DNA of 54,426 nucleotides from an uncultured Bacteroidia bacterium (GTDB taxonomy: Bacteria > Bacteroidota > Bacteroidia > Bacteroidales > UBA932): the NCBI GenBank assembly GCA_902774155.1, contig CACYHF010000005.1:1-54426 (forward strand). Direction: 5' to 3'. Shown piece by piece: positions 45,457 to 54,293 of this stretch (the first letter of the stretch is position 1; each line of letters opens with the position of its first letter). Below the pieces are notes generated by a model. That model saw nothing but the letters and a program-made list of their open reading frames with translations. It was not told the origin of the DNA and did no database searches. Position numbers and translations under genes: made by a program.

Positions 45457-45517
45457 GTATATAGCGAGGGTCAGAGGAGGCCTTCGTACTGGGCCTGGTC
45501 TGTATGTTGTGTTTTTG

Positions 45518-45591
45518 TAGCGGGAGTGGGTCACGATCCCACGACCTCCGGATTATGAATCCGACGCTCTAACCAGCTGAGCTACCCCGCC
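45518..45591 (-). tRNA. tRNA-Met (anticodon CAT), unusual T-loop
   Basis: The cloverleaf reads GGCGGGGTAGCTCAGCTGG at the 5' end, with anticodon arm CGGATTCATAATCCG (CAT) and T-arm stem GTGGG/CCCAC. The T-loop is ATCGTGA instead of TTCGANN: positions 54 and 58 are A and T, the reverse of the usual T54-A58 pair. An elongator Met tRNA is most likely; tRNA-Ile2 with CAT is the alternative. Confidence 0.85.
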
Positions 45592-45608
45592 ATCCTTATT
45601 TCAAAATA

Positions 45609-45633
45609 AAAATCAGCTTAAACGGCTGATTTT
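45609..45633 (-). terminator. Terminator between the two tRNA genes
   Basis: AAAATCAGC/GCTGATTTT stem with a 7-base loop; on the minus strand it is followed by TATTTT. It ends tRNA-Gln transcripts, leaving 17 bases before tRNA-Met. Confidence 0.65.
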
Positions 45634-45634
45634 G

Positions 45635-45705
45635 TTGAGATAGAAGGACTCGAACCCTCACTGACAGAGCCAGAATCTGTAGTGCTACCATTACACCATA
45701 TCTCA
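45635..45705 (-). tRNA. tRNA-Gln (anticodon CTG)
   Basis: The acceptor stem TGAGATA/TATCTCA, D-arm (GGTGTAATGGTAGCAC), anticodon arm ACAGATTCTGGCTCTGT with CTG, and a normal T-loop (GGTTCGAGTCC) are complete. The CTG-reading Gln tRNA complements a TTG isoacceptor expected elsewhere. Confidence 0.93.
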
Positions 45706-45807
45706 ATGAGTCCCGCAAAACGGGACTGCAAATGTACGACTTTTTTTGAAAACTGCAAGGAATAAAGTGAAAAAAGTGCAGGACTTGCAAAAGCCGCAAT
45801 TTTCCTC

Positions 45808-45815
45808 TATATTTG
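45808..45815 (+). promoter_or_regulatory. Promoter of the alarmone/partner-switch operon
   Basis: TATATTTG (45808-45815) with a TTG near 45785 forms a -33/-7 pair. The leader to the ATG at 45838 is about 19 nt. No further promoter was seen before 50814, so genes to 53990 may share it. Confidence 0.55.
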
Positions 45816-45837: not shown

Positions 45838-46920
45838 ATGGCGGAGAAACAATATCAGTTGGATGCCCATTGTCAGGCCATCCTGGACGAATACCGGGAG
45901 CATTTGCCCCTGTTTGAGCCCGCTGCAGAGAAAATCGTTGCCAAGCTCAAAAAGGTGTTCAACCAGGCGGGGCTCATTGTGGCTTCCATCGAATCCCGGG
46001 TCAAGACGGAGAATTCTCTCACCGGCAAGTTGGAGCTCAAGGGCTCCAAGTACGCCAGCCTGGAAGACATAACAGACATCGTGGGCGTTCGCGTGATCAC
46101 GTTCTATATGGACGACGTAGACAAAGTGGCGTCGGCCGTAGACCGTCTCTTCCAGATTGACTGGGAGAATTCCGTAGACAAGCGCAAGGCGCACGGAATT
46201 GACAGTTTTGGCTATATGTCGCTGCACTATATCTGCCGGATGAAGGGCTTCCCCTACCGTTTCGAGGTCCAGATGCGCACCGTGCTGCAGCACGCCTGGG
46301 CCAATATGAACCACGACACCGGTTACAAATCCGGCGTGGAGGTGCCTTGGGAATATCTGCGCAACCTGAACCGCCTGGCCGGTATGCTGGAACTGGCCGA
46401 TGAACAGTTCTCCCGCATCCGCAACGAACTCACGGACTATCGCCGCCGCGTGCAGGCCCTGGTGGCCTCCGGCAACCTGGCGGAAGTCCCGCTGGATGTG
46501 GATACCTTCCGCAGCTACCTTTCTCTGGAGCCTTTCAGCAACCTGAACAAGCGCATCGCCGCCGTGAACCAGGCCGAAATTCAGGAAGTGAACCTGATGA
46601 ACTACCTGGCCGTGTTCCGTTTTCTGGGTTGCAAAACCCTGGGAGATATAGACCAGCTGATCAAAGAGAATTTCGATGCAGCGTACCAGATAGCCTGCTA
46701 CCAGATCGGCCTTACGGACCTGGATATCATTTCCTCCTCCCTGGCCCCGCAGGATGTCTGCATTGCCCATATGCTGCGCTCGGGCAAAGGCAAAGAGGGC
46801 CTTAAAAAACTGCTGGACGAAATCAACGGCGTATCGGCCAGCAACGAAGCCATGGCCGAACTCCTGATGGAGGAAGTCCAGGATTTACCTTTTATCAAAA
46901 TGTCTAAAAACAATGGCTAA
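45838..46920 (+). CDS. RelA/SpoT-domain (p)ppGpp synthetase, stand-alone, with C-terminal extension
   Basis: The 360-residue protein has a RelA/SpoT nucleotidyltransferase domain at about 40-165: SRVKTENSLTGKLELKG (53-69), DITDIVGVRVITFY (77-90, Asp80), FGYMSLHYICR (124-134), and FEVQMRTVLQHAWANMNHD (142-160, catalytic Glu143). These fit an active pyrophosphate transfer from ATP to GDP/GTP. There is no HD, TGS or ACT domain. Residues 170-360 form an unrecognised helical extension, longer than in common small alarmone synthetases. The stop overlaps the start of an HD hydrolase by 8 bases. A tRNA-modifying toxSAS activity is an alternative. Confidence 0.87.
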   Translation: MAEKQYQLDAHCQAILDEYREHLPLFEPAAEKIVAKLKKVFNQAGLIVASIESRVKTENSLTGKLELKGSKYASLEDITDIVGVRVITFYMDDVDKVASAVDRLFQIDWENSVDKRKAHGIDSFGYMSLHYICRMKGFPYRFEVQMRTVLQHAWANMNHDTGYKSGVEVPWEYLRNLNRLAGMLELADEQFSRIRNELTDYRRRVQALVASGNLAEVPLDVDTFRSYLSLEPFSNLNKRIAAVNQAEIQEVNLMNYLAVFRFLGCKTLGDIDQLIKENFDAAYQIACYQIGLTDLDIISSSLAPQDVCIAHMLRSGKGKEGLKKLLDEINGVSASNEAMAELLMEEVQDLPFIKMSKNNG

Positions 46921-47491
46921 CGCCCCTCTTAATACAGAATTGCTGGATCGCGCCATCCTTTTCGCGGTCAAGGCCCACGCGGGCACAGAACGCCGCGGGA
47001 AGGGCTTCCCCTACATAGTCCACCCCCTGGAGGCCGTGGAAATCGTGGCCACCATCACCCCGGACCAGGAACTGCTGGCCGCCGCCGCCCTGCACGACGT
47101 AGTGGAGGATACGGATATTTCGGCCGATGATCTCCGCGCCGAATTCGGCAACAGGATCGCAGACCTTGTAGTGGCCGAAAGCGATGTTTTCGTGGAGGGC
47201 GTAAGTGAGGAAGACAGCTGGCATACCCGCAAGCAGGCGGCCATCGACCGTCTGGCGGCCGCCCCGTACGAAGCCAAGATCGTGGCGATGGGGGACAAAC
47301 TGTCCAATATGCGCGCCATTGCCAGGGACTATGTCCGGATGGGCGACGAACTTTGGAAAATTTTCCACGTCAAGGACATCACGGAGCACGAATGGCACTA
47401 CCGCGGCCTGGCGGCTTCCCTGAGTGAGCTCAGCGACACATTCCCCTACCGGGAATTTGTCCAACTGATAGATCAAGTATTTACCCATTGA
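46913..47491 (+). CDS. HD-domain alarmone hydrolase (small alarmone hydrolase/MESH1-like)
   Basis: The 192-residue protein carries the SpoT/MESH1 hydrolase motifs: HAGTERRGKGFPYIVHPLEAV (22-42; His37), LLAAAALHDVVEDT (54-67; His61, Asp62, Glu65, Asp66) and IVAMGDKLSNMRA (123-135; Asp128). The metal-binding HxxxHD...D set is complete, so it should remove pyrophosphate from (p)ppGpp or a similar alarmone with Mn2+. It overlaps the synthetase gene by 8 bases, so the two should be made together. The TGA ends 5 bases before the kinase ATG. Confidence 0.88.
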   Translation: MANAPLNTELLDRAILFAVKAHAGTERRGKGFPYIVHPLEAVEIVATITPDQELLAAAALHDVVEDTDISADDLRAEFGNRIADLVVAESDVFVEGVSEEDSWHTRKQAAIDRLAAAPYEAKIVAMGDKLSNMRAIARDYVRMGDELWKIFHVKDITEHEWHYRGLAASLSELSDTFPYREFVQLIDQVFTH

Positions 47492-47496
47492 GGCCT

Positions 47497-48324
47497 ATGG
47501 AAGCGAAAAGAATCAACCTGGACGATTACGTCCACGCCGGAGAAGGAGCCAACGGGGAGAGCTTCAACCACCGCACGGATACCGATGTGATGATGAAACT
47601 CTACAATCCGGGAAAAATCCAGCAACCCCTGGACGAGATGCTGATGGCCCGCAAGGTCTATGCGCAGGGCATCCCTTCGCCGGAGCCGGGAGAATATGTG
47701 ACGGACGGCGTACGCTACGGTATCCGTTTCCGCCGCATCCACGGGAAGAAGTCTTTCTCCCGGGCCACGGCGGACAACCCGGAAAAGGTGGCATATTATG
47801 CGGAACGCTTTGCCAAGATGTGCCTGAAGTTGCACCAGATCCATGTGGACACCACGCAGTTTGAAAACGTGAAAGACCGGTATTATCGGCTGCTGGCCGA
47901 AAATCCCTTCTTCACATCGGCCGAAAAGGATGCGATCGCCCGTTTCATAGCCGATGCCCCGGACACAGATACGGCCATCCACGGAGACCTGCAGTATTCC
48001 AACGCCATCTTCGCGGGGAACGAGGATTATTTCATCGACCTGGGAGACTTCTGCTACGGCTATCCGCTCTTCGATGTCGGTATGGTGTACCTGTGCTGCT
48101 GTGTGAGCGAAGAAGCCTTTATCCAGGAGGTGTTCCATATGCCCAAAAGCCTCGCCATCCAGTTCTGGGAGTGTTTTGCACCGGTCTATTTTGGCACGGA
48201 CCGGCCGCTGAAGGAGATTAACGAGGAAGTGATTCCCTATGCCGGGCTCAAGACCCTCATAGTGGAGCGGGACACCAAACGTCCTATGCCGGAAATGCGT
48301 GCCTGTCTTAAAGGAATCATCTGA
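47497..48324 (+). CDS. Aminoglycoside phosphotransferase-like kinase (TIGR02172-type)
   Basis: With the ATG at 47497 the product is 275 residues. The Brenner-type motif AIHGDLQYSNAIF (His-Asp-Asn) and the metal site YFIDLGDFCYGYPLFDVG are clear, and the N-lobe has MMKLYNP with the ATP-contacting Lys. This belongs to the APH/choline-kinase fold; the pattern resembles a family described from Fibrobacter paralogues. The substrate is unknown, and the gene is not likely to be a resistance gene in this setting. A TTG at 47488 would overlap the hydrolase gene. Its TGA overlaps the next ATG (TGATG). Confidence 0.8.
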   Translation: MEAKRINLDDYVHAGEGANGESFNHRTDTDVMMKLYNPGKIQQPLDEMLMARKVYAQGIPSPEPGEYVTDGVRYGIRFRRIHGKKSFSRATADNPEKVAYYAERFAKMCLKLHQIHVDTTQFENVKDRYYRLLAENPFFTSAEKDAIARFIADAPDTDTAIHGDLQYSNAIFAGNEDYFIDLGDFCYGYPLFDVGMVYLCCCVSEEAFIQEVFHMPKSLAIQFWECFAPVYFGTDRPLKEINEEVIPYAGLKTLIVERDTKRPMPEMRACLKGII

Positions 48325-50498
48325 TGGCAGCAAGAAAAAAACTGGATAAAGCAACCAGGCTGGCCACCAGACAAGGCCTGCTCGTAGTGATAGTTTGCCT
48401 TCTCACCCTGGAGGCTACGGCTCTCTTGCAGTATTATTACTCACGGAAAATCCTTTCGGAAGAATCAACGCGCCGGGCCCAGGGCCAGCTGGAAGCCACG
48501 AAACTGCATATCCTGAACGTTTTGGACCAGGTGGAAACTGCCGTCCGGAACAGCCAGTGGAGTGTGGAACAGCAGTTGATCAAGCCGGACAGCCTCTCCG
48601 CCGTTACCGTGCGCCTGGTGGCCAGCAACCCTGTCATCTGCGGATCAACCGTGGCCCTGAAGGACCATATGCTGGCACCCTATTCCCACGAGGCGGAAGG
48701 GACCATCCTCACCTCTACTTTGGCCACGGAAGAATACGATTACCCGCACCAGGAGTGGTTTGTCAAACCCCTGGAACTGGGAGAAGGTTACTGGTCGGAA
48801 CCCTACTTCGACGAAGGCGGCGGCAACATCCTGATGACCACCTATTCCGTCCCGGTAGTGGACAAAAAGGGCCGCACAGCGGTGTTTACGGCCGATGTTT
48901 CTTTGGAGTGGCTGTCGGATCTCATTGCAACGGTGAAGGTCTATCCCACCGCCTTCAATATGGTGGTGAGCCGGGAAGGCCGGATTATGGTGAGTCCTGT
49001 GGAAACCCTCACCATCGAGCACAACGTGCACGATCTGGCCTCGTCAATGGAAGACAGCACCACCTTCCAATCCCTGAACCAGACCATTATGGCCGAAGAA
49101 TCCGGCCAGGATACCTACAAGTATCAGGGGAAACTGCATTATATGTTCTTTGACAAGGTCCCCCGGACGGGCTGGGTGATGTCCATCTCCATTCCGGAAG
49201 ACGAGATATACGGAAGTATCAAACGCCTGGGCGCAATGGTCACGCTCCTGCAAATCGTAGGACTGCTTATGCTCATCCTGGTTCTGTATTATATGGTCAG
49301 GGGCCAGCGTGAACTGCGTCAGAGCGAGGAACAGAAGAACCGCATCGACGGGGAACTCCAGGTGGCCCGTGGGATCCAGATGTCCATGATCCCCAAGATC
49401 TTCCCGGAGTATCCGGAATGCGCCGACGTTGATATGTTCGCCTGCGTGATTCCTGCCAAGGAAGTGGGCGGCGACCTATATGACTTCTATATCCGGGAAG
49501 AAAAACTATTCTTCTGTATCGGCGACGTGAGCGGCAAGGGTGTGCCCGCCTCCCTGGTGATGGCGGTGACCCGCAGCCTCTTCCGCACGGTATCGGCCCA
49601 CGAAAAGAGTCCCCAGCGCATTGTATCCACCATCAACGCCAGTATGTCGGATATGAACGAGACCAATATGTTCGTGACGCTCTTCTGCGGCGTGCTGGAT
49701 CTCAAAAATGGCCATTTGCGCTACTGCAACGCCGGACATAATGCCCCGGTGCTGGTGCAGAAGGACGGAAACCGGGAACTGCCGGTGGAGCCTAACCTGC
49801 CGCTGGGCGTGCTGTTCGAAATGTCCTTTACCGAACAGGAGTGCGACCTCTCCTGCGGCACCGGCCTGTTCCTGTACACGGACGGCCTGAACGAGGCCGA
49901 GAACGCCTACCATCAGCTCTTCGGTGAGGAGCGTATGATGGCCGCCCTTAAATCGGGCCTGGAATCCAGACAACAGATAGCCGCTATGACGGATGCCGTC
50001 CACGCTTTTGTGGCCGGCGCCGAGCAGAGCGACGACCTTACCATGTTATACATTCGTTTTATGAACAGTCAGATTACGGAAGAAACTGAGCGGCACCTGA
50101 TCCTGCACAACGACATCCAGCAGATTCCTCAGCTGGCCGAGTTCGTGGAGTCAGTGGCCGATATCGCCAAGCTGGACGTAGGCATGACGATGAGCCTGAA
50201 CCTGGCACTGGAAGAAGCCGTTACCAACGTCATCATGTACGCCTATCCGCCGGGCTCCGACGGACTGGTGGATGTGGAGGCCGTTATCCGCGAAAAGGAG
50301 TTGAGATTCATCCTCTCAGACAGTGGTGTGGCCTTCGATCCCACGGCGGCTCCGGAAGCCGATATCACCCTGGACGTGAGCGAAAGGCCCATCGGCGGCC
50401 TTGGTATATTCCTTGTCAGGAACATCATGGACGAAGTGACCTATACCCGCTCCGATGATGGAAAGAACATACTTACGATGATAAAAAAACTAGCATAA
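48324..50498 (+). CDS. Membrane Cache-PP2C phosphatase fused to an RsbW-like HATPase
   Basis: The 724-residue protein has a helix at 18-38, a Cache-type sensor region at 40-300 (GYWSEPYFDEGGGNILMTTYSVPVVD, core YWSEPYFDEGGG), a second helix at 303-325, then PP2C at 365-580 (GGDLYD 382-387, GDVSGKG 400-406, TDGLNEAEN 519-527, SDDLT 569-573) and a GHKL ATPase at 595-720 (ALEEAVTNVIMYAYP 628-642, SDSGVAFDP 665-673, GGLGIFLV 691-698). The phosphatase (RsbU-like) and the anti-sigma kinase (RsbW-like) activities sit in one chain. HAMP is absent, unlike the paralogue at 38397. The STAS partner follows by 3 bp. Confidence 0.93.
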   Translation: MAARKKLDKATRLATRQGLLVVIVCLLTLEATALLQYYYSRKILSEESTRRAQGQLEATKLHILNVLDQVETAVRNSQWSVEQQLIKPDSLSAVTVRLVASNPVICGSTVALKDHMLAPYSHEAEGTILTSTLATEEYDYPHQEWFVKPLELGEGYWSEPYFDEGGGNILMTTYSVPVVDKKGRTAVFTADVSLEWLSDLIATVKVYPTAFNMVVSREGRIMVSPVETLTIEHNVHDLASSMEDSTTFQSLNQTIMAEESGQDTYKYQGKLHYMFFDKVPRTGWVMSISIPEDEIYGSIKRLGAMVTLLQIVGLLMLILVLYYMVRGQRELRQSEEQKNRIDGELQVARGIQMSMIPKIFPEYPECADVDMFACVIPAKEVGGDLYDFYIREEKLFFCIGDVSGKGVPASLVMAVTRSLFRTVSAHEKSPQRIVSTINASMSDMNETNMFVTLFCGVLDLKNGHLRYCNAGHNAPVLVQKDGNRELPVEPNLPLGVLFEMSFTEQECDLSCGTGLFLYTDGLNEAENAYHQLFGEERMMAALKSGLESRQQIAAMTDAVHAFVAGAEQSDDLTMLYIRFMNSQITEETERHLILHNDIQQIPQLAEFVESVADIAKLDVGMTMSLNLALEEAVTNVIMYAYPPGSDGLVDVEAVIREKELRFILSDSGVAFDPTAAPEADITLDVSERPIGGLGIFLVRNIMDEVTYTRSDDGKNILTMIKKLA

Positions 50499-50501
50499 AC
50501 C

Positions 50502-50810
50502 ATGGAAGTAAAAATCACTGAAAAAGACAATGTGATGACCGCTCAGCTGATCGGTCGTCTGGACACGGCTGTTTCCCAGGAAGTGGCTACCACCCTGCAA
50601 CCCGTTATCGAGCAGGCCAACAAGACCATCGTGCTGGACTGCAAGGAGCTCTCTTACATCAGCAGCTCCGGACTCCGTATTTTCCTCACCATCCGTAAGG
50701 CTGCCGCCGGCAAGGGCGGAAAGGTGATTGTCCGTGACATCAACAACGAAATCCGCCAGGTGTTCATGATGACAGGTTTCCTGAACCTGTTCGAGATTCA
50801 GGAAAGCTAG
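50502..50810 (+). CDS. STAS-domain anti-sigma factor antagonist (RsbV/SpoIIAA type)
   Basis: The 102-residue protein is a single STAS domain: VMTAQLIGRLDTAVSQEV, TIVLDCKELSYISSSGLRIF and VIVRDINNEIRQVFMMTGF. The Ser run in SYISSSGLRI includes the residue phosphorylated by RsbW-type kinases and dephosphorylated by PP2C phosphatases. The preceding gene supplies both activities, so the phosphorylation state of this protein should report the Cache signal. The sigma factor or other target is not in the window. Confidence 0.92.
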   Translation: MEVKITEKDNVMTAQLIGRLDTAVSQEVATTLQPVIEQANKTIVLDCKELSYISSSGLRIFLTIRKAAAGKGGKVIVRDINNEIRQVFMMTGFLNLFEIQES

Positions 50811-50813
50811 GTT

Positions 50814-53800
50814 ATGGAGGAGAAGAAGCCCCTTTCGCTCCCGGAGAACGCTCACCGGGAGCTGGCTCCGGGCGAACAGTATCAACCTCTTCTGTCCCCC
50901 ACGGAAAAGTATGCCGAGGCCACGCCGTATTCGGTGGGCGTCGGCATCTTGATGGTGATCCTGTTCAGCGCCGCCGCTGCATATCTGGGCCTGAAGGTGG
51001 GCCAGGTATTCGAGGCTGCCATCCCCATTGCCATCATCGCCGTGGGCCTCACGGGCGCCCTGGGTCTCAAGCAGGGCCTTCCGCAGAATGTGATTATCCA
51101 GAGTATAGGCGGCTGCAGCGGTGCAGTGGTGGCGGGAGCCATCTTTACCCTGCCGGCCATCTATATCCTGGGAGTGGAGGTCCAGTTCTGGCAAATGGTC
51201 CTGAGTTCCCTGCTGGGCGGCGTGCTGGGTATCCTGTTCCTGATACCGTTCCGCAAGTATTTTGTGAAGGAAATGCACGGGAAGTATCCGTTCCCGGAGG
51301 CCACTGCCACCACGCAGGTGCTCATCAGCGGCGAAGGCGGCGGGTCCAGCGCCAAGACGCTCATCGGCGCGGGCCTCATCGGCGGCCTGTACGACTTCGC
51401 CGTAGCCACCTTCGGAACCTGGGCCGAAACCATCTCCACCACGGTAATGGGCTGGGGTGCGGCGGTGGCCGATAAAGCCAAGTTGGTGCTCAAGATGAAC
51501 ACTGGCGCGGCCGTGCTGGGCCTGGGCTATATCATCGGCCTGAAGTATTCCTTCATTATCTGCTGCGGTTCGCTGCTTGTTTGGCTGGTAATCATCCCCC
51601 TGATGAACCTCATCTGGGGAGCCGATGTCATCGACCTGATGGGCACCGGCGTTACCCAGACCATCGGCCAGATGGCACCGGAACAGATTTTCAAGGACTA
51701 TGCGCGGCATATCGGTATCGGCGGTATCGCTACGGCCGGTATCATCGGCATCGTGAAGAGCTTCGGCGTGATCAAGGGCGCGGCTTCGCTGGCCGTTTCC
51801 GAATTCAAGCGCCGGCCCGGTACGCAGGCCGAAAAGCCCCTCCGTACGGAAGAGGACCTGCCCATGAAGACCATCGTCTTCGGCGTGGTCATCGCCCTGC
51901 TGTGCATCTTCGCCTTCTTCGCTTTCGGCGGGGTGGTGGAGAATGTGTGGCAGGCACTGATCGGCCTGCTTGTAGTGGCTGTTGTGTCCTTCCTCTTTAC
52001 TACGGTAGCGGCCAATGCCATCGCCATCGTGGGTTCCAACCCGGTGAGCGGTATGACCCTCATGACCCTCATCATCGCCTCCCTCATCCTGGTGGCGGTG
52101 GGCCTGAAAGGCAATGCCGGTATGGCGGCGGCCCTGATTATCGGCGGCGTGGTGTGCACGGCGCTCTCCGTGGCCGGCAGCTTCATCACGGACCTGAAAA
52201 TCGGTTATTGGATTGGCTCTACGCCCAAAGTGCAGGAAAGCTGGAAATTCCTGGGCGTGGCGGTATCGGCCGTCACGGTTTGCGGCGTGATGCTGGTGCT
52301 CAACAAGACTTACGGCTTCACCGGCGATAATGCCCTGGTTGCCCCGCAGGCCAATGCTATGGCGGCGGTGATCCAGCCCATGTTCTCCGGCGGCGGCGCT
52401 CCCTGGCTGCTGTACGGGATTGGTGCGGCCATTGCCCTGGTGCTGAATTTCTGCAAGGTACCGGCCCTGCCGTTCGCCCTGGGTATGTTCATCCCCATCG
52501 ACCTGAACCTCCCGCTGCTGGTGGGTGGCGCCATCTCCTGGTACGTGTCCACGCGCTCCCAGGATGCCGCCGTGAATGCCGCCCGCATGGAGAAAGGCAC
52601 CCTCATCGCTTCCGGCTTCATCGCCGGTGGCGCGCTTATGGGCGTGGTGAGTGCCATCCTCAAATTCGCCAACGTAGATTTGTATATGACCGAATGGGCC
52701 GCCAACTACGGCGAGGCCGTGGCCATCGTGCCCTTCCTGTGCATCATCGCCTATATGGTGTACGCCTCCATGAAGATTTTAGACCGTTTTTTGAGATACG
52801 TGTCGGTGGATACGCAAAGTTGTGAGGAATCCGAGACCCAGCCTTCCGCCGCCAAGGAATGGGACCTGCTTAAAATGCTGGAGGCCGAACTGAAAGCCCT
52901 GGGCGTGGAAGTCACCCTGGACGAATACGGCTACGTAATGGCCTCCATCCCTTCCAACCTGGACAAGGACGTGCCTGCCGTGGGTTTCATCGCGCACGTG
53001 GACACCGCCCCGGATGCCAGCGGCAAAGACGTGAAGCCGCAGATTGTGCCCAACTACAATGGCGGCGCCATCGACCTCAAAGGCGTTCCCGGCCTGCAGT
53101 TGAAACCGGAAGAGTTCCCCGAAATGCTGCATTACGTGGGCCAGACGCTCATCACCACCGACGGCACCACCCTCCTGGGAGCCGATGACAAGGCCGGCGT
53201 GGCCGAAATTATGAACGCCGTGCAGTATCTGGTAGAGCATCCGGAATTCAAACACGGACCGGTGAAGATTGGCTTCACGCCCGACGAAGAGATTGGCCGC
53301 GGTGTAGTGAAATTCGACGTCCCCCGTTTCGGGGCCGATTTCGCCTACACCATGGACGGCGGCGAAGTGGGCGAACTGGAGTTCGAGAACTTCAACGCCG
53401 CCAGCGCCAAAATCCACATCCAGGGCCGCAACGTGCACCCCGGCTATGCCAAGGGTAAAATGAAAAACGCCATCCTGATCGGTCAGGAGCTGAATGCCCT
53501 CTTACCGGCATTGGCCCGTCCGGAACACACGGAAGGCTACGAAGGATTCTTCCACCTCATCTCCTTCAAGGGCAGCGTGGAAGAGGCCGATTTCGCCTAT
53601 ATCATCCGTGACCACGACCGCGCCAAGTTCGAGGCCCGCAAAGAAATGATGCAGAAAGCCACGGACTACATCAACGCCCTGTACGGAGAAGGCACTGCCA
53701 CAGCCGTGATCAAAGACCAGTATTACAACATGCGGGAACAGGTAGAGCCGCACTACCACATCATTGACAAGGCGGTGAAAGCTATGGAGATGGCCGGAGT

Positions 53801-53990
53801 AAAAGCCAAGATCCAGCCCATCCGCGGCGGCACCGACGGCGCCAACCTCTCCTTCAAGGGTCTGCCCTGCCCCAACATCTTCGCCGGCGGCCTCAACTTC
53901 CACGGCAAAATGGAATTCCTGCCCCTGGAAAGCATGGAAAAAGCCTCCCAGGTGGTGCTGAACCTTATTTCTCTGTTTGCCGGGGAATAA
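50814..53990 (+). CDS. Oligopeptide transporter (OPT family) fused in frame to peptidase T
   Basis: The 1058-residue open frame joins two complete proteins. Residues 1-652 are an OPT transporter with about 14 hydrophobic segments ([31 protein letters not shown]; core [47 protein letters not shown]). Residues 653-1058 are M20B peptidase [29 protein letters not shown] (His728), [36 protein letters not shown] and [20 protein letters not shown]. There is no stop between them. The PepT Met codon (52770) could also be used as an internal start. The arrangement would trim imported peptides at the inner face of the membrane. Confidence 0.88.
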
Positions 53991-54293
53991 GACTTTTGAT
54001 ACCACTCTCTGTGGACCAGGTCCAGTTGCTTTTTGGACTTGGTCCATTTTTGTCCCGTGGACCTGGTCCACCAAATCGGCCTTCCAGGGCTCTCAAAGGC
54101 GCAATTGAAAACTTTAAGCACGTTTTCCACTTCGGAGAGCGAAAAACGTGCTTCAGGTAGGGGATAGAAGTATGGCTGAAGCGCAAAAACAGCGACAGAT
54201 ACCCAAAAGTGTGCTTTAAAAACTTAAAGCACGCCGGGGAGGAGTTACGCCGGGGAGGAGTTACGCCGGGGAGCGGGTCACACGGGGCGGGAG
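53991..54293. other. Intergenic stretch with palindromes, hairpins and a short tandem repeat
   Basis: Three 13-bp near-palindromes of the type TGGACCWGGTCCA lie at 54012-54024, 54034-54046 and 54058-54070; the first two can pair as a terminator followed by TTTTT for the upstream gene. AAGCACGTTTT (54116-54126) pairs with AAAACGTGCTT (54143-54153), and GTGCTTTAA (54211-54219) pairs with TTAAAGCAC (54224-54232). ACGCCGGGGAGGAGTT is repeated 2.6 times from 54231. No gene seen. Confidence 0.65.
54012..54052 (+). terminator. Terminator of the OPT-PepT gene
   Basis: TGGACCAGGTCCA (54012-54024) can pair with TGGACTTGGTCCA (54034-54046), with a T-run (TTTTTG) directly after. Confidence 0.6.

Follow-up and report, generated by a model that had tools for sequence, protein, structure and literature searches.

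A conserved Bacteroidales operon that probably couples a ligand-gated partner switch to a dedicated alarmone synthetase and hydrolase

This work concerns an operon on the forward strand of contig CACYHF010000005.1 (assembly GCA_902774155.1), from an uncultured Bacteroidia bacterium (Bacteroidales; UBA932). The stretch analysed, positions 1 to 54,426 of this contig, is referred to below as the window. Five genes between 45838 and 50810 encode a small alarmone synthetase (SAS), an HD-type alarmone hydrolase (HD), an APH-type kinase (APH), a membrane protein with dCache, PP2C and HATPase domains, and a single-domain STAS protein. We consider it probable that the operon forms an alarmone module that is complete in itself and gated by a receptor, and in which a ligand-gated partner switch controls a dedicated SAS/HD pair. 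As far as can be read from sequence, this proposal is grounded in the gene set, its linkage, the intact catalytic residues, the invariant serines of the STAS protein and the gene fusions described below.

A gene set kept together across Bacteroidales

The SAS gene (45838-46920, + strand; 360 aa; PF04607, E 4e-19) overlaps by 8 bases the gene for an HD_4 alarmone hydrolase of the SAH/Mesh1-like type (46913-47491; 192 aa; PF13328, E 1e-18). After a gap of 5 bases, counted from the ATG at 47497, follows the gene for a TIGR02172/APH-fold kinase (47497-48324; 275 aa from this ATG; TIGR02172, E 1e-66), which shares 1 base with that of the dCache-SpoIIE(PP2C)-HATPase membrane protein (48324-50498; 724 aa; Pfam and NCBIfam matches). 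Three bases further on lies the gene for the STAS protein, of the anti-sigma-factor-antagonist type (50502-50810; 102 aa; PF01740, E 1e-17; TIGR00377 above its cut-off). All five core frames were found open and their domains were confirmed with Pfam and NCBIfam, so that the genes, overlaps and gaps described in an earlier sequence-only reading are all present as claimed. That reading ended the unit at 50810, and there it does not hold. It omitted a sixth gene (OPT::PepT; 50814-53990; 1058 aa; Pfam and NCBIfam), in which an OPT oligopeptide transporter and peptidase T share a continuous frame. Its start codon lies 3 bases past the end of the STAS gene, and the unit therefore goes past 50810. 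All six genes follow one another in the same direction on the + strand between 45838 and 53990, and by its position OPT::PepT would be part of the same transcription unit in the window, outside the conserved core.

Conservation of the set was examined in two groups of loci, cited here by L numbers, which probably overlap and whose counts were kept apart. In a scan of named genomes with the SAS of the window, the best 80 of 310 relatives were kept. Their titles read Bacteroidales, Bacteroidia or, in two cases, Prevotellaceae, and for many of them the title mentions rumen, reticulum or omasum, or the isolate bears a RUG name. Among the 72 of these loci with at least 4.3 kb downstream, the order HD-APH-PP2C-STAS of the window was found in 58; the other 14 were partial or re-ordered, one of them lacking any partner. 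In the second group, SAS was present in 98 of 299 genomes of the family. Four loci were dropped (L232, a distant SAS; L233 and L234, fragments; L235, a second locus), leaving 94, and 12 more were left out for short flanks, which gave 82 loci with at least 5.5 kb downstream. All five functions were held in 63 of these 82, with HD in 78, APH and HATPase in 72 each, STAS in 71 and PP2C in 70.

The linkage is also seen where the gene order differs. In other Bacteroidales families, the order of the window recurs in L099, while L100 reads PP2C-STAS-SAS-APH-HD, and L101, L105 and L106 read HATPase-PP2C-STAS-SAS-HD::APH, where the double colon marks a single reading frame; L102 is of this last type but with HATPase between PP2C and STAS. 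Within the genus of the window, L149 and L213 show STAS-SAS-X-HD::APH-PP2C, and L216 has the same order without X, its SAS frame being flagged for one internal TGA. In L068 the order is SAS-PP2C-X-STAS-HD-APH. A single frame encodes both HD and APH in 25 of 110 loci, and this form appears on several branches of the SAS tree, with 10 label changes, at least 5 of them forced by well-supported branches; the separate form seen in the window falls in a single clade (support 100/97), in which HD and APH are separate in 59 of 66 rows. At the other extreme, SAS and STAS stand side by side with no other partner in L142, where about 7.5 kb could be seen on each side, and a like pair occurs in L146 and L231, whose SAS are near-identical and lie close to contig ends. 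Because different genera and families have the set, and in more than one arrangement, sequence comparison indicates that the operon is a widely kept unit, beyond chance neighbourhood. The proposal that the five genes form one system is thus borne out by a linkage that survives re-ordering, fusion and splitting, and conservation merely by chance among close strains is excluded by the searches of 299 and 393 genomes.

The distribution of the module is patchy. In the search of the order (E 1e-25) an SAS match was obtained in 10 of 393 genomes, and in that of the phylum (E 1e-30) in 4 of 296, the window's own genome being included each time, so the module is no general Bacteroidota trait; three of the phylum matches (L095-L097) have an SAS relative for which no partner gene was found. 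Presence of a HATPase_c_2 protein, scored at E 1e-12 across the 299 family genomes, followed that of SAS: 95 of the 98 SAS genomes had one, versus 54 of the 201 without SAS. Two of the three exceptions are genomes of 88% and 73% completeness, and the third has a distant SAS. In the genus of the window all 28 SAS genomes (the window's own counted) carry HATPase_c_2 and, among the genomes listed as negative, the same 20 congeners lack both; a further congener, G977, has the HATPase and no SAS.

Several lineages add genes to the core. A cytidylate-kinase-like gene can stand between SAS and HD (Pfam, on L036). APH and PP2C can be separated by the gene for an antiporter of the Na+/H+-exchanger type that carries TrkA_C (Pfam, positions 12471-13982 of L041); visual inspection placed it there in seven other loci as well, and in L068 between PP2C and STAS. 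A gene for an NMT1-type binding protein precedes PP2C in L080 and L220 (Pfam), and OPT/PepT can come after STAS. Such lineage-specific accessories are compatible with a constant core whose inputs or outputs can be exchanged.

Predicted activities of the encoded proteins

The residues that would be needed for catalysis were inspected in alignments from which rows with a best stretch under 60% of the query had been dropped (for PP2C, 54 were kept, split forms being among those dropped). They are intact throughout the operon, and on this basis SAS, HD, the kinase, PP2C and HATPase all look like active enzymes, SAS and HD being apparently capable of producing a stress alarmone and of degrading it.

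SAS consists of a RelA_SpoT domain (residues 53-166), a long helix (171-211) and a helical C-terminal region (about 215-357). PF04607 was the sole Pfam family detected in its 360 aa at E 0.01, with no HD, TGS or ACT domain on the chain. Residues R54, K56, S60, K64, D80, G83, R85, Y126, H130, E143, Q145, R147, H152 and H159 are kept in 89 of 89 aligned sequences, the window included, and presumably comprise those that act catalytically on ATP and the acceptor. The nearest sequences in the PDB are RelP/RelQ-type synthetases, CapRel being reached at E 0.006. In an AlphaFold2 model (mean predicted local distance difference test score, pLDDT, 82.5; predicted template modelling score, pTM, 0.49), the synthetase core is followed by a single long helix and then by some 140 residues of helical C-terminal region. 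All 50 Foldseek matches listed for the model were SAS or Rel proteins, aligned over 203 columns at most, and the C-terminal region is accordingly left without a fold assignment. Residues 1-122 of HD match the N-terminal part of TIGR00691 (E 8e-21); HD_4 PF13328 scored above its cut-off, and the HD, ED and D128 residues, the part of the H..HD..ED..D pattern that was scored, are intact, with H61, D62, E65, D66 and D128 kept in 82 of 82 aligned sequences. The genome also encodes two long RSH proteins, which makes the operon pair an accessory one.

The kinase matches TIGR02172 over the full length of the model (1-226 of 226) with 224.5 bits, the cut-off being 228.2. Its start was placed at the ATG at 47497, where relatives align, with a TTG at 47488 as the alternative. 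In TTG-start numbering, H165, D167, N172, D184 and D187 are kept in 81 of 81 aligned sequences. A structural model (pLDDT 95.4) has choline, methylthioribose and aminoglycoside kinases as its nearest folds, and a sequence search of the PDB returned nothing at E 0.01. Naming the substrate from the fold was considered and rejected, as a match spread over these three kinds of kinase names none. The accession TIGR02172 is named in no paper of the open full-text search, and the name of the model states no function. A second TIGR02172 kinase is encoded on contig 42 of the same genome (L113), near a Cytidylate_kin2 gene; this proximity, together with the insert of the same family between SAS and HD in L036, suggests that the two families are linked.

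In the membrane protein, dCache spans residues 79-299 or so, SpoIIE PP2C 392-579 and an RsbW-like HATPase 596-721. The key residues of PP2C and of the N, G1 and G2 boxes of HATPase are kept in 54 of 54 aligned sequences (for example G383, D384, D401, D520, D571, E631, N635, D666, G668, G692 and G694). The PP2C region is matched by PDB entry 3ke6 and, weakly, by the SiaA family NF038263 (39.7 bits, cut-off 700). Both S54 and S55 of STAS are invariant in 75 of 75 aligned sequences, and Ser55, at what we take to be the phospho-acceptor position of SpoIIAA/RsbV, is the candidate phospho-acceptor. As to the output of STAS, no SigB/F/G-type sigma factor scored above the TIGR02980 cut-off in this 92%-complete genome (best match 115.6 bits versus 234.35, probably the primary sigma factor), which makes a classical sigma switch unlikely; no GGDEF match was obtained in the six operon proteins.

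How the partner switch could reach the alarmone enzymes

In the mechanism that we favour, the dCache domain would read a ligand outside the cell, and the ligand would shift the balance between dephosphorylation of STAS Ser55 by PP2C and its phosphorylation by HATPase. STAS would be the diffusible output, one phosphorylation state of which would bind the alarmone enzymes, most likely at the helical C-terminal region of SAS. By analogy with SiaC of Pseudomonas aeruginosa, the active form may be the unphosphorylated one, its binding turning alarmone synthesis on. HD would reset the signal, and the hydrolase arm would be tuned by the APH-type kinase, which is often fused to HD. The whole would amount to a Rel enzyme divided over two proteins and governed from outside the cell, beside the two long RSH proteins. 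We infer STAS phosphorylation by this particular membrane protein, STAS-SAS binding and the direction of the switch, as well as the product of SAS and the substrate of the kinase; that STAS would act on SAS as SiaC does on SiaD, that HD would be the off switch and that APH would tune HD is argued from analogy. A flow from Cache ligand through STAS phosphorylation to a change in alarmone is the best reading of the operon. The alarmone pair and the partner switch had previously been pictured as parallel arms, and the data favour instead a switch that acts on the alarmone enzymes. In a more specific form of the proposal, ligand-dependent STAS phosphorylation would switch SAS directly, HD would answer to its own, often fused, APH-type kinase, and the pathway would be independent of ribosomes and of amino-acid starvation, as an alarmone analogue of a two-component or cyclic di-GMP (c-di-GMP) receptor pathway. 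We advance this form tentatively, at somewhat less than an even chance.

Partner switches composed of a PP2C phosphatase, a HATPase kinase and a STAS protein with a conserved serine are known from RsbU/RsbP-RsbV-RsbW and SpoIIE-SpoIIAA-SpoIIAB. Their output is a sigma factor, whereas the operon described here fuses PP2C and HATPase in one protein, in a genome where no SigB/F/G-type factor reached the cut-off. Mycobacterial Rv1364c, which regulates a sigma factor, unites PP2C, HATPase and STAS in one protein with a PAS sensor, and it resembles the present sensor through the 3ke6 match to the PP2C region. The chemistry of synthetase and hydrolase is that of Rel/SpoT, RelP, RelQ and Mesh1; here it is divided between two proteins, synthetase first, and linked to a partner switch. 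The closest working parallel, by analogy, is SiaABCD, in which a PP2C, a kinase and an anti-sigma-antagonist-like phospho-protein encoded in one operon control a messenger synthase. According to the accessible text of two reports, PP2C and kinase set the phosphorylation of SiaC, the activator of the diguanylate cyclase SiaD (PMC7647112, PMC8457831), and phosphorylation blocks SiaC-SiaD binding (PMC8457831). The output of SiaABCD is thus a diguanylate cyclase, whereas the present operon has an alarmone synthetase and no GGDEF; it would work alike, and it is not a member. In the accessible parts of these reports, moreover, the kinase SiaB is a separate protein, SiaC belongs to the DUF1987 family and has Thr68 as its phosphorylation site, and no hydrolase or APH kinase is named (PMC7647112, PMC8457831). 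HsbA-HsbD and BgrV-BgrR are similar in that the phosphorylation state of a STAS protein controls a messenger synthase, as far as the accessible text goes (PMC8457831), and differ in that the messenger is c-di-GMP, not an alarmone. In FaRel/ATfaRel, an SAS gene lies beside a small alarmone hydrolase (SAH) gene, but the flanking genes are antitoxins and the accessible text mentions no sensor, phosphatase or STAS (PMC11782079).

The earlier statement that no described system is known to have this set is consistent with our searches of the open full-text literature, which left subscription papers and preprints aside: judged by title and the opening of the abstract, no paper returned announces an alarmone synthetase tied to a PP2C/STAS switch. 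The words 'ppGpp' and 'alarmone' are both absent from the main text of a review of STAS-only proteins (PMC8256260). In its accessible part, the 2011 RSH survey lists Rel, RshB and an unplaced synthetase-only divRel, and no SAH, for 8 Bacteroidia taxa; SAS genes in Bacteroidia are therefore not new as such. Partner switching onto a messenger synthase is likewise already known; what we found no report of, in open full text, is partner switching onto an alarmone pair.

Several observations weigh against the proposed control of the pair by the switch. The most constant partner of SAS is HD rather than STAS (78 versus 71 of the 82 family loci), and HD lies directly downstream of SAS in 72 of them. 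In eight of the 82 (L147, L166, L169, L181, L198, L210, L212 and L218) no PP2C, HATPase or STAS gene was found within 8.5 kb, L025, L047 and L058 retain SAS-HD-APH and no switch, and SAS in L029 has no partner gene despite long flanks. In favour of the proposal, along with the co-occurrence of SAS and HATPase_c_2, all eight switch-less family genomes encode a HATPase_c_2 protein on another contig, as the L103 and L104 genomes, with only SAS-HD at the locus, encode a 793-aa HATPase protein elsewhere; these distant HATPases need not be cognate. The association of SAS with HATPase_c_2 (Fisher p 1e-34) is uncorrected for shared ancestry, and 54 genomes have HATPase_c_2 without SAS. The genome of the window holds a second Cache-PP2C-HATPase/STAS pair on contig 53 (positions 7913-10317 of L130) with no alarmone gene adjoining, so such pairs can have other outputs. 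SAS relatives that occur alone on a phage-like plasmid element, or beside TIR/SLOG genes, may have another role. The pTM of 0.49 leaves the placement of the C-terminal region in the SAS model uncertain, and contact of STAS with any alarmone enzyme is again something that we infer.

The constancy of HD speaks for the main rival explanation, in which STAS controls the HD/APH side, SAS is constitutive and alarmone rises once hydrolysis is switched off. Also in its favour are the frequent union of HD and APH in one polypeptide (the 25 of 110 loci given above) and the distance of STAS from SAS in the order of the window. We nevertheless consider it unlikely, given the SAS-STAS pairs with neither HD nor APH nearby (L142, and L146/L231 near contig ends) and four of the best-80 loci that have STAS and lack HD (L013, L031, L054 and L080). 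Another rival is shared regulation only: an ordinary partner switch with its target elsewhere would be co-transcribed with an accessory alarmone pair that it does not contact, both serving stress physiology. The second Cache-PP2C-HATPase/STAS pair, the eight family loci with no switch gene nearby, the missing switch at L025 and a pair inverted upstream at L077 speak for it. This explanation, which we regard as rather improbable, is weakened by the fact that the genes stay linked in at least five different orders and despite several fusions and splits, since co-transcription alone does not demand such linkage.

A toxin-antitoxin or abortive-infection system, with SAS as a toxic synthetase, HD as its hydrolase antitoxin in the manner of FaRel/ATfaRel and the other genes as trigger, is in our judgement highly doubtful. 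It would be in keeping with the 8-base overlap of SAS and HD, with the match of SAS residues 12-155 to the PADLOC candidate defence family PDC-S33 (E 6e-16, 56.9 bits) and with the distant SAS relatives, which adjoin TIR/SLOG/RyR genes or lie on a plasmid element of phage-like content. From the accessible text of published work, the gene next to that of FaRel encodes an SAH antitoxin (PMC11782079), and RelA-type and APH-type domains are both among the effectors of conflict systems (PMC7159879). The other four operon proteins, however, gave no PADLOC match, and the nearest PDB sequences of SAS are of the RelP/RelQ type, CapRel following only at E 0.006. In 4 of the 72 best-80 loci with enough flank, HD, the would-be antitoxin, is missing while APH-PP2C-STAS is present and SAS intact, and most loci keep a membrane ligand sensor and a STAS switch.

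Control of alarmone synthesis is known to proceed through the state of the ribosome, through binding of proteins or metabolites to long RSH enzymes and through transcription of SAS genes. Under the ligand-gated control of SAS and HD favoured here, the level of the alarmone may be set directly by a signal from outside the cell. If true, growth of rumen Bacteroidales would be tied to outside cues by a membrane receptor acting through a phospho-switch, partner switching would be a general adapter for nucleotide messengers, beyond sigma factors and c-di-GMP, and TIGR02172 kinases would gain a role.

Transcription signals, neighbouring genes and related loci

A motif scan found a promoter-like site of the -33/-7 type, TTGCAA-17-TATATT, upstream of SAS (45785-45813, + strand, or to 45815 with TATATTTG). 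The sequence TATATTTG at 45808-45815 fits the Bacteroidetes -7 element, under what we take to be the -33/-7 consensus of the group. The motif TAnnTTTG occurs within 100 nt upstream of SAS in 49 of 80 relatives, versus 2.75% of 4000 random 100-mers, and before the inner genes in 1 of 73 (HD), 8 of 75 (APH), 0 of 70 (PP2C) and 4 of 67 (STAS). The single promoter earlier proposed upstream of the operon thus gains support from a site in the right place and from a motif that recurs before SAS and rarely before inner genes. Promoter look-alikes between 44500 and 54426 are at chance level (7 versus 5.6 expected), as are terminator look-alikes (12 versus 10.0), for which reason the promoter claim rests on position and conservation. 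The strongest terminator-like site on the + strand, favoured by position and strength, is a hairpin of 15 pairs followed by TTTTTG at 54011-54047. The hairpin scan also gave two weaker + strand sites, of 10 pairs at 53964-53991 and of 7 pairs inside the APH gene at 48007-48027. Just upstream of the operon and divergent from it lie genes for tRNA-Met(cat) and tRNA-Gln(ctg) (45517-45705, - strand), the only matches of an Rfam scan.

OPT was found in 19 of 81 loci, PepT in 19 and either in 20; in 6 of the 81 both lie on the operon strand as two genes. The single frame of the window corresponds to two genes with a stop between them in L004, L007, L008, L010, L011 and L014. Its junction looks like a short in-frame deletion, and OPT::PepT may be either a genuine fusion or an error of the assembly.

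The alarmone operons of L138 (7312-8613) and L140 (4310-5848) encode a fusion of an RsbW-like HATPase with a lipid kinase domain of the DAGK/YegS type, and HATPase frames of 434-458 aa suggest more such fusions in further loci.

Beyond Bacteroidota, the searches covered a plasmid collection and the 14 control genomes of the family searches. In the plasmid collection, 18 records hold distant SAS relatives, the best at 37% identity and none covering 80% of the query. One relative of 37% identity stands alone amid phage structural and phage-like genes in a plasmid record of Bacteroides finegoldii (positions 5989-7062 of L119), whose annotation shows no partner genes. In L098 (8512-16188), a weak HD gene lies with genes for an 884-aa RelA_SpoT/SLOG-type/RyR protein, a TrkA_N/RyR protein and a TIR protein; the region looks like a defence island and a distant relative of the operon.

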